From assembly GCA_023667185.1 (NCBI GenBank), contig JAMPAP010000011.1, positions 1 through 33,922 of the forward strand: 33,922 bases of DNA. The letters run 5' to 3'. Source of the DNA: Lachnoclostridium sp. Lineage in GTDB: Bacteria; Bacteroidota; Bacteroidia; Bacteroidales; Muribaculaceae. A program made the position numbers and the translations under genes. Below the pieces are notes generated by a model, which was given only the letters and a program-made list of their open reading frames with translations, ran no database searches and was not told the origin of the DNA. Shown here one piece after another: positions 6,847 through 28,335 of the stretch (positions are counted from its first letter, which is position 1; every line of letters starts with the position of its first letter).

Positions 6847-6982
6847 TCAAATTTTTCCCGTTGGCGAAAACCTTTCAACTGAAATGAATGTTAATAAGAC
6901 AACCGACGCAAATCAGCACCGGCAAACTATTTATTAAAATTATTAAAAATTTACATTTATTTTAACTATTAGAAAAATTTCT

Positions 6983-18474: not shown

Positions 18475-19203
18475 TCATAAAATGTTAAGGTCAGTAAGCA
18501 TCTGACGCATCGTGAAAATACCCTTCTTACCTGCAATCCACTCGGCAGCCATCACTGCTCCGAGAGCAAATCCGTCGCGCGAATGGGCGTCATGGGTTAT
18601 AGTAATGGTATCTACTGCTGAATCCCAGCTTACGGAGTGAATACCGGGTACCTCATCACGGCGGATACAGGTCACCGGAATCATGCCGGTCTCAGCCTTG
18701 TCAGTCTCCTCCCAGCCATGGTAGCGGTCACATTCGGTGGTAATTTCGTTAAGAAGAGTAATAGCCGTGCCTGAGGGGTGATCGAGTTTATGTATATGAT
18801 GAGTCTCACTTAAGGATGCCGAATACTGCGGCAGAGAGTTCATCATGCGGGCAAGGCGGGAATTGATTTCAAACATTACATTGACGCCTATAGAGAAATT
18901 ACTCGTGGCTAAAAGCGCCGAATCATGCGCCGTGACGTAGCTGTCAACCTCTGATTTGGCATCATACCATCCGGTAGAGCCACACACCACAGGGACACCT
19001 TTATCCACACTACGCTTGATATTATCCACTGCTGTGGAGGGAGTGGTAAACTCTATAGCGGCATCAGCCCGGCAGAACGCCTCCGAGTCAAAGTCAGAGA
19101 GATTATCCTTGTCAATGACTGACACAATCTCGTGACCGCGTTCGCGGGCTATACGTTCCACGGCATGTCCCATCTTGCCGTAGCCTATAAGTGCTAATTT
19201 CAT
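18475..19203 (-). CDS. dapB: 4-hydroxy-tetrahydrodipicolinate reductase
   Basis: Reduces the dihydrodipicolinate precursor with NAD(P)H in the diaminopimelate/lysine pathway, feeding cell-wall and lysine synthesis; cytoplasmic. 242 residues: dinucleotide-binding GYGKMG (7-12), GSTGW (75-79), SNFSIGVN (101-108) and the catalytic/substrate loop HHIHKLDHPSGTA (135-147). It is slightly shorter than the E. coli enzyme, as usual in Bacteroidota. It sits 10 bases after the upstream unknown gene and 4 bases before lepB. Confidence 0.95.
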   Translation of the reverse strand: MKLALIGYGKMGHAVERIARERGHEIVSVIDKDNLSDFDSEAFCRADAAIEFTTPSTAVDNIKRSVDKGVPVVCGSTGWYDAKSEVDSYVTAHDSALLATSNFSIGVNVMFEINSRLARMMNSLPQYSASLSETHHIHKLDHPSGTAITLLNEITTECDRYHGWEETDKAETGMIPVTCIRRDEVPGIHSVSWDSAVDTITITHDAHSRDGFALGAVMAAEWIAGKKGIFTMRQMLTDLNIL

Positions 19204-25616: not shown

Positions 25617-26555
25617 TCAACTTAATTCAAGCATACGGGTAATAGGACGCCGCGCACGGTCAATGATAGCGGCGTCAACATGAATCTCTGGCTGCTCATC
25701 GCGCAAGCAGTCGCGCAGCTTCTCCATGGTGTTGAGCTTCATGTAAGAGCACTCGTTGCAAGCACAAGTACTATCGTCGGCCGGAGCCGCTATAAAAGTC
25801 TTCTGAGGGCACTTCTTGCGCATCTCGTGAAGAATACCGCTCTCGGTAGCCACAATAAACTCCTGAGCATCGTCCTCACAGGCATACTTGAGAAGCACTG
25901 CCGTAGATCCAACCTTGTCAGCCAGCATACGCAGCTGCGGGCGACACTCGGGATGCACCAGCAGCCGTGCGCCGGGATGCACCTTCTTAAGCTCAAGAAT
26001 ACGCTCAAGTGAAAACTTCTCATGAACGTGGCATGCACCATTCCACAACACCATCTGCCTTCCCGTCTCGCTATTGATATAATTGCCAAGGTTACGGTCA
26101 GGCCCGAAGATTATCTTTTCATCCTCAGGGAGCGATTTTACAATCTTCATGGCATTGCCTGAAGTGACCACAATATCGGTCAGAGCCTTCACCCGCGCTG
26201 AGGTATTGACGTAAGAAATCACCGTATGCCCGGGATGGCCGGCAATGAAAGCTGCAAATTCATCGGCATCACAGCTATCAGCCAGCGAGCATCCGGCCTC
26301 CATGTCAGGCACCAGCACCTTCTTGTCAGGGCAGAGGATCTTCACAGTCTCGCCCATGAAGTGCACTCCGCACATCACAATGATTTTATTTGGGAGCGTC
26401 GCTGCGATCTGCGCCAGCGCCAGCGAATCGCCTATGAAATCAGCGATGTCCTGAATGTCGCCCGTCTGGTAATAATGAGCCAGGATCACGGCATCCTTCT
26501 CTCGTTTCAGTCTCAGAATCTCATCCCGGAGTTCAGGGGAGTTTTCAACTTTCAT
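25617..26555 (-). CDS. nadA: Quinolinate synthase
   Basis: Iron-sulfur enzyme that condenses iminoaspartate with dihydroxyacetone phosphate to quinolinate in de novo NAD synthesis. 312 residues. AHYYQ (26-30) and GDSLALAQIA (42-51) mark the N-terminal domain; the likely [4Fe-4S] ligands are C62 (MCGVHFMGET), C175 (WNGACHVHE) and C269 (CACNECSYMKLNT). No nadB or nadC is adjacent. It is the first gene of the nine-gene minus-strand run and borders the candidate replication origin. Confidence 0.96.
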   Translation of the reverse strand: MKVENSPELRDEILRLKREKDAVILAHYYQTGDIQDIADFIGDSLALAQIAATLPNKIIVMCGVHFMGETVKILCPDKKVLVPDMEAGCSLADSCDADEFAAFIAGHPGHTVISYVNTSARVKALTDIVVTSGNAMKIVKSLPEDEKIIFGPDRNLGNYINSETGRQMVLWNGACHVHEKFSLERILELKKVHPGARLLVHPECRPQLRMLADKVGSTAVLLKYACEDDAQEFIVATESGILHEMRKKCPQKTFIAAPADDSTCACNECSYMKLNTMEKLRDCLRDEQPEIHVDAAIIDRARRPITRMLELS

Positions 26556-26743
26556 TTTTATGAATTAAAAAATAATTTTAAAAAAAAATATAATTTAATC
26601 AGGAGCAATAATGGATGTCAATTACACCAATAACTTTATGCTGATTTTCTTGCATAAATGGGTTATTGAAGTAAGGTTAACAATAGTCAAAATGTTATCT
26701 ACATAGGTGCTCACTGATTATCAGGTGTTTGAATGGTTTATTT

Positions 26744-27247
26744 ACATTGTGTTTATAATCTGCAAAGTTAATAATTTTCATTGTAAAATTACTGATGAAA
26801 ATGTCAAAAAGCTATAATATATGTGTATTAATAACTCTATGACAACTAATTTGGATAATCTCTCCTGATGAGGTATATGATAAAAGGGATGGAAAAAGCA
26901 AGAAAAAGTTGTTGAATGTTATCTACAGTTATTGACATGGTTTTATACATCGTTGTTAACACAGGTATTTCAGCTTTATTTTCAAGCCATTGACACTGAA
27001 ATGAATGACAATATAATATCAACAATGAAATATACACTTTATCAACATACTAAAACATTATATATCAATGATATAAATGGTTTATTAACATAGTGTTTAA
27101 AATTAATGTAAACACAATGTAGAATAAATGATAGTAATAAGTGAATTAACATATAATTCTACAAATTATAAACATCATAATAAGTTGATATATAATAGAT
27201 AAACATAGTTATAAACACCATGTCAATAACCTCTGTAAACACCATGT
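26744..27247. repeat. Five copies of the 12-mer TAAACACnATGT
   Basis: Minus-strand copies lie at 26744-26755 and 27088-27099; plus-strand copies at 27109-27120, 27212-27223 and 27236-27247. The eighth base varies (A, T, A, C, C). Two of the copies directly overlap weak DnaA-like boxes (26750-26758, 27209-27217). Confidence 0.8.
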
Positions 27248-27315
27248 AAAGAAAGAGGAATGTATCTTTTCTATGGAAATGAGTATCCACAGTATATGTG
27301 CAAAAATCAAATTAG

Positions 27316-27330
27316 AGCCTCGACGAGGCT
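27316..27330. repeat. Small perfect palindrome AGCCTCG-A-CGAGGCT
   Basis: Seven-base arms around a single A, between the oriC-like region and the FKBP terminator. It recalls the stem of the REP-like hairpins at 11996 but lacks their GGA loop and GTTGT flank, so I do not count it as a copy. Confidence 0.5.
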
Positions 27331-27360
27331 ATATAGTCAGTGATAGTTTTGCCGGATGCA

Positions 27361-27401
27361 CAATAAAAAAAGCCGACCCGGGGCGCGGGCTCCGGGTCGG
27401 C
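27361..27401 (-). terminator. Rho-independent terminator after the FKBP lipoprotein gene
   Basis: GCCGACCCGG (27372-27381) pairs perfectly with CCGGGTCGGC (27392-27401). On the minus strand the hairpin is followed by a T run (complement of 27365-27371). It lies 22 bases beyond the FKBP stop codon. Confidence 0.92.
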
Positions 27402-27423
27402 ATATTTTATAGGGGGGAAGTTA

Positions 27424-28335
27424 TTATTCTTCGGGGGTAACATCGAGTACTTCTACATCAAATACGAGGGTCGCCATAGGGGGAATGCCTGCGGCAGGAA
27501 CGCCTTCAACTCCGTAAGCGAGGTTGCCGGGGATGATGAGGGTGTACTGTCCGCCTTTCTGCATCATCTCAAGACCTTCGCCGAAACCGGGAACTACACT
27601 GCCGGGAGTGAATGTAGCGTTGTCGCTGCTGTCAAATTCAGTACCGTCAACGAGTTTGCCGGTGTATTTAACAGTGGCATGACCTCTACGACCTACCTTT
27701 GCGCCGTTACCTTCTTTCACTACTTTGTAGCTAAGGCCGGAGGGGGTGGTTACGATAGAAGGATCGTCAGCCTTGGCGGCAGTAACATATTTCTCACCAG
27801 CGGCTACATTTTCTTTGGCCTCGGGAGATTCTTCTTTAGCTTTGCGGGCTTCTTCAGCTTTCTTAGCTGCGTCGGCTTCAGCTATCTGGCGGGCGCGCTG
27901 GTTGAGTTCTTCAAATTTAGCCTGGAGGAGCATGAAGGCCTGCTGGTCGATAGTGTCGGCTTTGAAAGCTTTAGCAAATTCCTTCATGAATGCCTTGCGG
28001 TCAACGGGGATACCGGCTTTTTCATACTGGTAAAGGCCGCCGGCGATCTGCATACCGATGTTAAGACCTGAGATATAGCCCTGGTTGGCTGTATCGGCCA
28101 TAACTACTTGTTCGATACCGCGGATGATTTCATCTTTTCTGAAGTGGTCACGCTCAGCTTCGGGCAGTGAGAGATAGTTTTGAGCCCACTGAGCACCCTG
28201 AAGTTCGCCGATAGCGGTGGATAGGGTATCAGCAAAACCTTTGTTGGGGTTAGCTTCAGAGCTTGATGAATTGTTGCATGCTACAAATCCGAGCGACATT
28301 GCGAGCGCTCCGCAAGCAATAAGAATTTTTTTCAT
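27424..28335 (-). CDS. FKBP-type peptidyl-prolyl isomerase, lipoprotein
   Basis: 303 residues. A lipoprotein signal ends in GFVAC (Cys20), so the protein is anchored to a membrane facing the periplasm or surface. Residues about 30-170 form the helical FKBP N-terminal domain, rich in Ala/Lys/Glu toward the end; residues about 195-303 are the catalytic FKBP domain with VKYTGKLVDGTEFDSS, VVPGFGEGLEMMQKGGQYTLIIPGNLAYG and TLVFDVEVLDV. It would catalyse prolyl cis-trans isomerisation and help fold envelope proteins. It lies 22 bases after a cytoplasmic paralogue and ends at a strong terminator. Confidence 0.94.
   Translation of the reverse strand: MKKILIACGALAMSLGFVACNNSSSSEANPNKGFADTLSTAIGELQGAQWAQNYLSLPEAERDHFRKDEIIRGIEQVVMADTANQGYISGLNIGMQIAGGLYQYEKAGIPVDRKAFMKEFAKAFKADTIDQQAFMLLQAKFEELNQRARQIAEADAAKKAEEARKAKEESPEAKENVAAGEKYVTAAKADDPSIVTTPSGLSYKVVKEGNGAKVGRRGHATVKYTGKLVDGTEFDSSDNATFTPGSVVPGFGEGLEMMQKGGQYTLIIPGNLAYGVEGVPAAGIPPMATLVFDVEVLDVTPEE

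Follow-up and report, generated by a model that had tools for sequence, protein, structure and literature searches.

The gap separating nadA from an FKBP gene (positions 26556 to 27423, 868 bp) very probably holds oriC, the chromosomal origin of replication, judging from its sequence and from those of its relatives. DnaA-type boxes are clustered in the gap, the GC skew of the contig turns beside it, the half next to nadA is conserved among relatives, and dnaA lies on another contig (C11). The window, that is, the whole stretch of DNA analyzed, is the entire contig C2 (33,922 bases) of a 2.29-Mb draft assembly of 43 contigs (G000). The gap has a GC content of 28.5%, against a window mean of 47.4%. 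Its lack of genes over some 860 bases, reported in the preliminary description, was confirmed. Profile matches identified the flanking proteins as quinolinate synthase, NadA (25617 to 26555, minus strand; PF02445, E = 1.4e-122), with 81% identity to Duncaniella sp., the closest named relative among the matches listed, and an FKBP-type peptidyl-prolyl isomerase (27424 to 28335, minus strand), one of two FKBP genes beside the gap. Given that nadA match, the host is probably a member of the Muribaculaceae. No tRNA was found in the window with ARAGORN. A hairpin followed by a T-run at 27363 to 27410 (minus strand), recognized as inverted repeat I3 and by direct reading, is probably the FKBP terminator, and the origin candidate was therefore taken to end at about 27362, giving a proposed oriC of 26556 to 27362. 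At 27300 to 27352 is an approximately 53-bp hairpin-containing sequence (GCCTCG..CGAGGC). The genome holds a single further copy, at C11:853492-853543 and with 89% identity, and a similar motif was seen upstream of nadA in one further locus (L004).

The gap contains a cluster of DnaA boxes beyond chance in noncoding DNA. Five 9-mers one mismatch from TTATCCACA (at 26695, 26850 on the minus strand, 26919, 27039, and 27283) compare with 0.52 expected, and 15 within two mismatches compare with 5.2 expected; neither count was reached by any of 300 dinucleotide shuffles. The earlier counts of five such 9-mers and several more at two mismatches were thus borne out, as were the two copies of AATGTTATCTACA (26691 to 26703 and 26915 to 26927) and the presence of A/T-only runs, the longest being 37 bp (26563 to 26599). 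The mismatch scan gave, on the plus strand, TTATCTACA at 26695 to 26703 and again at 26919 to 26927, TTATCAACA at 27039 to 27047, TTATTAACA at 27082 to 27090, TTATAAACA at 27166 to 27174, and the box-like GTATCCACA at 27283 to 27291, together with the box-like TTATCCAAA on the minus strand (26850 to 26858). The second TTATCTACA box was also found in a direct-pair search, its partner being TTATTGACA at 26929 to 26937 (plus strand). The sole exact plus-strand copy of TTATCCACA in the window lies within a coding region at 19001, with a one-mismatch copy 21 bases on (18990 to 19035).

In addition to single boxes, the gap carries two inverted pairs of DnaA-type boxes, dyad 1 at 26738 to 26758 and dyad 2 at 27209 to 27229. 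When the dyad pattern with a spacer of 2 to 5 nt was searched across the 2.29-Mb assembly, these were the two places found. Convergent box pairs with a spacer of 0 to 30 nt occurred at three places in the assembly, two of them in the gap, and direct pairs at five places, one of them in the gap; the other direct pairs were located between dnaA and a parA-like gene (C11:709595-709623), at C6:31129 (a tandem pair in DNA of 49% GC), and at two more places on C11. Box density was then scanned with the pattern TTAT[ACT][AGT]ACA in 2,870 windows of 500 bp, covering 13 stretches of C11 and contig C2. The six densest were all in the gap, with five to seven boxes each, compared to a mean of 0.51 over 91 low-GC windows, the six densest included. 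On C11 (708501 to 712500), direct reading showed dnaA followed by the parA-like gene with two DnaA-type boxes between them, which possibly serve the regulation of dnaA or parA.

The cumulative GC skew of contig C2, a 34-kb part of a 43-contig draft, was lowest at 26527. Since the host genome is a draft, chromosomal skew was sampled in 20-kb stretches in four single-contig Bacteroidales, G092 of the same family (40 stretches) and G247, G262, and G406 (20 each), with extra stretches placed near nadA in all four. The interpolated minimum fell 5.3 kb (G092), 3.5 kb (G247), and 0.7 kb (G262) from nadA, at a resolution of one 20-kb stretch. For G406, the interpolated minimum was near 360 kb (step fit, 170 to 460 kb), approximately 2.1 Mb from nadA along the shorter arc of the chromosome, and the extra stretches at nadA therefore did not force the result. 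Over contiguous sequence of G406 from 170 to 450 kb, the local skew was lowest at 222430. A dyad at 222582, one of four in that genome, lies 0.15 kb away within a gap of 855 bp, which also holds the box peak of G406 and is flanked on direct reading by a response-regulator-like gene and rpiB. The skew comparison proposed in the preliminary description, computed for the contig and for these relatives, thus placed the contig minimum beside the gap and the sampled minimum of the relatives at nadA in three of four cases and in a box-rich gap elsewhere in the fourth. G247 and G262 are numbered from dnaA, and their sampled minima lie approximately 1.1 and 1.2 Mb away from it by the shorter way.

The densest sampled box windows of G092, G247, and G406 were at their skew minima. 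With TTAT[ACT][AGT]ACA, the peak of G262 tied with a site at 916 kb, and with TTAT[CT][ACT]ACA it stood alone at 1838 kb, while the latter pattern gave a tie in G247 with a site at 2215 kb. In the three genomes with the minimum near nadA, the box cluster lies outside the nadA gap, 1.6 to 3.5 kb off: after pgi in G092 (1376648 to 1377570; gene name by direct reading) and, in G247 and G262, between DUF4294-like and radical SAM genes at approximately 1.6 kb from nadA (direct reading). Thus, in three of the four single-contig relatives, the skew minimum has a box cluster no more than about 3.5 kb from nadA, and in the window, the nadA gap and the box cluster are one and the same gap.

The region upstream of nadA was next aligned, anchored on nadA, with nine relatives (six of the same genus, two Duncaniella, and one of another genus of the family). 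Approximately 430 bases with their boxes, 26556 to 26990 in the window, were conserved, and the elements followed one another in the order, towards nadA, of a TGTNNATAA ladder, TTATTAACTTTGCA or a near match, the inverted box pair (10/10 sequences), and single boxes; a TTATNNACA box was present near the position of the 26695 box in 9 of 10. The right half of the gap showed no conservation in this alignment. Boxes therefore persist upstream of nadA in all nine relatives, as expected of an origin, but the nadA-FKBP gene order, also proposed for comparison, was seen in none of the relatives' loci compared, one of which (L022) has a thioredoxin-like reading frame in place of FKBP. The FKBP neighbor was for this reason dropped as a part of the system.

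The conserved part includes a probable nadA promoter. The Bacteroidetes -7 consensus is TAnnTTTG, and the candidate -7 element TAACTTTG (26763 to 26770, minus strand) contains TTAACTTTGCA, which is kept in 10/10 aligned sequences and is followed directly by dyad 1. Many nadA loci of Bacteroidales, though not all, share this inverted box pair just downstream of the probable promoter. A 42-base core was matched with 12 or fewer mismatches in 61 of 135 nadA-upstream sequences, always on the nadA strand and at -178 to -271, and none of 60 shuffles came closer than 14 mismatches; three of the 135 are the window's own, G092 is represented twice, and loci with fewer than 200 upstream bases were dropped. 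Of 133 loci, counting window copies and some species more than once, 76 had the dyad with a fixed 3-nt spacer and at most two mismatches no farther than 350 bases from nadA; shuffles typically reached five mismatches. The 3-nt spacer was set by the test, and all four lengths occur when 2 to 5 nt are allowed.

An RNA reading of the nadA leader was set aside, as Rfam gave no match at the gathering threshold anywhere in the window. RNAalifold, run on 23 of the 26 leaders from the family, found no structure; the shuffles also gave none, so the test is insensitive. Dyad positions 5 and 17 were complementary in 24% of 62 distinct sequences, compared to 29% expected for independent positions, which speaks against a hairpin.

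The strict dyad (spacer, 2 to 5 nt) was present in 10 of 17 genomes searched and absent from 7. It was at the origin candidate in G000 (both of two places), near it in G092 (one of two), at the skew minimum in G406 (one of four), upstream of nadA in G322 (one of two), and away from the skew minimum in G247 (both of two), G262 (its single place), and some other genomes, G406 being among the latter for its remaining dyads. The exact dyad was therefore rejected as a stand-alone mark of the origin, being found in 10 of 17 genomes and often away from the minimum. The local skew step at nadA loci was likewise rejected as a marker of the dyad, with values of 0.092 in the presence (n = 29) and 0.105 in the absence (n = 24) of the dyad (P = 0.85).

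These observations bear on a different interpretation of the gap, that it is mainly a regulatory region of nadA in which an NAD-responsive repressor has the dyad as its operator and the remaining boxes arose by chance in A/T-rich DNA. The frequent placement of the 3-nt-spacer dyad just after the conserved TTAACTTTGCA fits this interpretation, as do the decayed dyads still found upstream of nadA in G247 and G262, with the box cluster 1.6 kb off, and the failure of the local skew step to track the dyad. It leaves unexplained, however, the excess of boxes over shuffles, dyad 2 (27209), the skew minimum, and the box-rich gap of G406, where a dyad coincides with the skew minimum at a distance from nadA; moreover, the half-site TTATNAACA is the same as the boxes standing singly nearby. 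A gap devoted mainly to nadA control is accordingly considered very unlikely. The identity of the dyad itself is a narrower matter, and two readings remain: it may comprise DnaA sites, perhaps also controlling nadA, or it may be an NAD-repressor operator inside the origin. DnaA as the binder is favored by the G406 dyad, which sits at a skew minimum lacking nadA, and the decayed dyads at nadA in G247 and G262, together with dyads at neither place, make the operator possible.

Equally improbable, in our estimate, is a true origin at dnaA on C11, with the gap acting as a site of DnaA titration or a decoy. Box clusters can titrate DnaA, a box pair separates dnaA from the parA-like gene, and sampled skew in G000 passed from -0.041 (660 to 680 kb) to +0.072 (690 to 710 kb), near dnaA at 710 kb. 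A lesser turn was also present near the dnaA of G092 (-0.118 at 710 kb, +0.024 at 782 kb, and negative again by 1030 kb). Such turns slightly weaken the case for oriC in the gap and slightly strengthen that for dnaA. Against this, skew switches sign several times over the 13 C11 stretches sampled, including once between 680 and 690 kb, 20 to 30 kb from dnaA, so that the turn near dnaA is not special. In G092, dnaA (782 kb) is approximately 600 kb from the main skew minimum, and in G247 and G262, the DnaA C-terminal domain is encoded at approximately 1.3 and 1.5 kb, with the sampled skew lowest near 2.30 and 1.84 Mb. The surroundings of dnaA are also much poorer in boxes than the gap.

The gap as oriC, first put forward in the preliminary description as probable and as lying away from dnaA, was hence supported on both counts, by the box excess, the contig minimum at 26527, the box density, and the relatives, and by the location of dnaA on C11. 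At such an origin, DnaA supplied from its distant locus would bind the array of TTATNAACA-type boxes, including the two inverted pairs, and would open a nearby A/T-rich stretch, from which replication forks would be loaded at the gap. The candidate unwinding elements are the 37-bp A/T-only run (26563 to 26599) and, alternatively, 27116 to 27210, which a nearest-neighbor profile places with the least stable 60-bp stretches in the window; stretches as unstable also occur at 6926 and 29031. The probable promoter and the leader of nadA overlap the half of the gap next to the gene, so that transcription of nadA would start inside the origin and run outward with the leftward fork.

Origins of the E. 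coli and B. subtilis type combine 9-bp DnaA boxes with A/T-rich DNA at the GC-skew minimum. The gap resembles them in its box cluster beside A/T-rich DNA at the skew minimum of its contig and differs in not being beside dnaA, a location that is common and not obligatory. That distance was to be expected, since Bacteroidetes origins are stated to be commonly far from dnaA in a passage of PMC4755523 whose authors cite DoriC. The oriC of chromosome I of Prevotella intermedia OMA14, as described there, similarly has a skew turn, multiple DnaA boxes, and no dnaA nearby; the available text of that account gives no box consensus, promoter overlap, or neighboring genes. The less ordinary feature here is an origin overlapping the nadA promoter and a recurring dyad. 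No paper linking nadA or quinolinate synthase to the replication origin in Bacteroidetes was found in the open-access collection searched, as judged chiefly by title. A true origin is needed for estimates of replication rate from metagenomes and for genome-numbering conventions.

The sequence data further indicate that the box of this lineage is TTATNAACA-like. TTATCCACA proved a poorer yardstick, TTATNAACA being commoner upstream of nadA in Bacteroidales, and the most enriched 9-mer in dyad-bearing nadA loci was TTATCAACA (71 observed, 1.0 expected). Among TTATNNACA sites upstream of nadA, position 6 was A in 81/126 (26 loci of the family) and 50/58 (28 loci of other families) and C in 3/126 and 5/58, respectively. 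The helix-5 motif of E. coli DnaA is RDHTTV (E. coli numbering is used below). The host protein (C11:709638-711026; 462 amino acids from its ATG; TIGR00362, E = 8.5e-135) instead has RTHATV, G092 has RSHATV, and G247, G262, G406, and G322, all of other families, have DHATV. By comparison, the E. coli-type box is TTATNCACA in the available text of PMC5043019 and PMC11511705, and the former, in the same portion, counts residues 432 to 435 among those making base-specific contacts and describes position 5 of the box as variable and the remaining positions as important. T435A, a change seen in 6/6 DnaA proteins, may accompany the shift of position 6 to A, but this number of proteins is too small for a claim. 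Residue 433 is T or S in the two family members (G000 and G092) and D in the four others; loss of Asp433 as the sole cause of a relaxed box was unsupported, as A was favored at position 6 in both groups of nadA loci.

Tentatively, and with more doubt than confidence, the Bacteroidales origin and the nadA promoter could be envisaged as one unit, now or ancestrally, in which DnaA on the dyad switches or senses nadA and so ties NAD supply to initiation, the box having shifted to TTATNAACA with the changes in the recognition helix (from DHTTV to DHATV in the four proteins of other families and to T/S-HATV in the two of the host family). Binding of DnaA to the nadA dyad, if it occurs, would provide a testable link from NAD synthesis to replication. 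Separately, 25 near-identically scoring reading frames of 262 amino acids in G092 (in L135 and other places) matched the DnaA AAA+ model weakly (E of ∼6e-6); they probably encode IS21-type helper ATPases belonging to an insertion sequence that has been strongly amplified.
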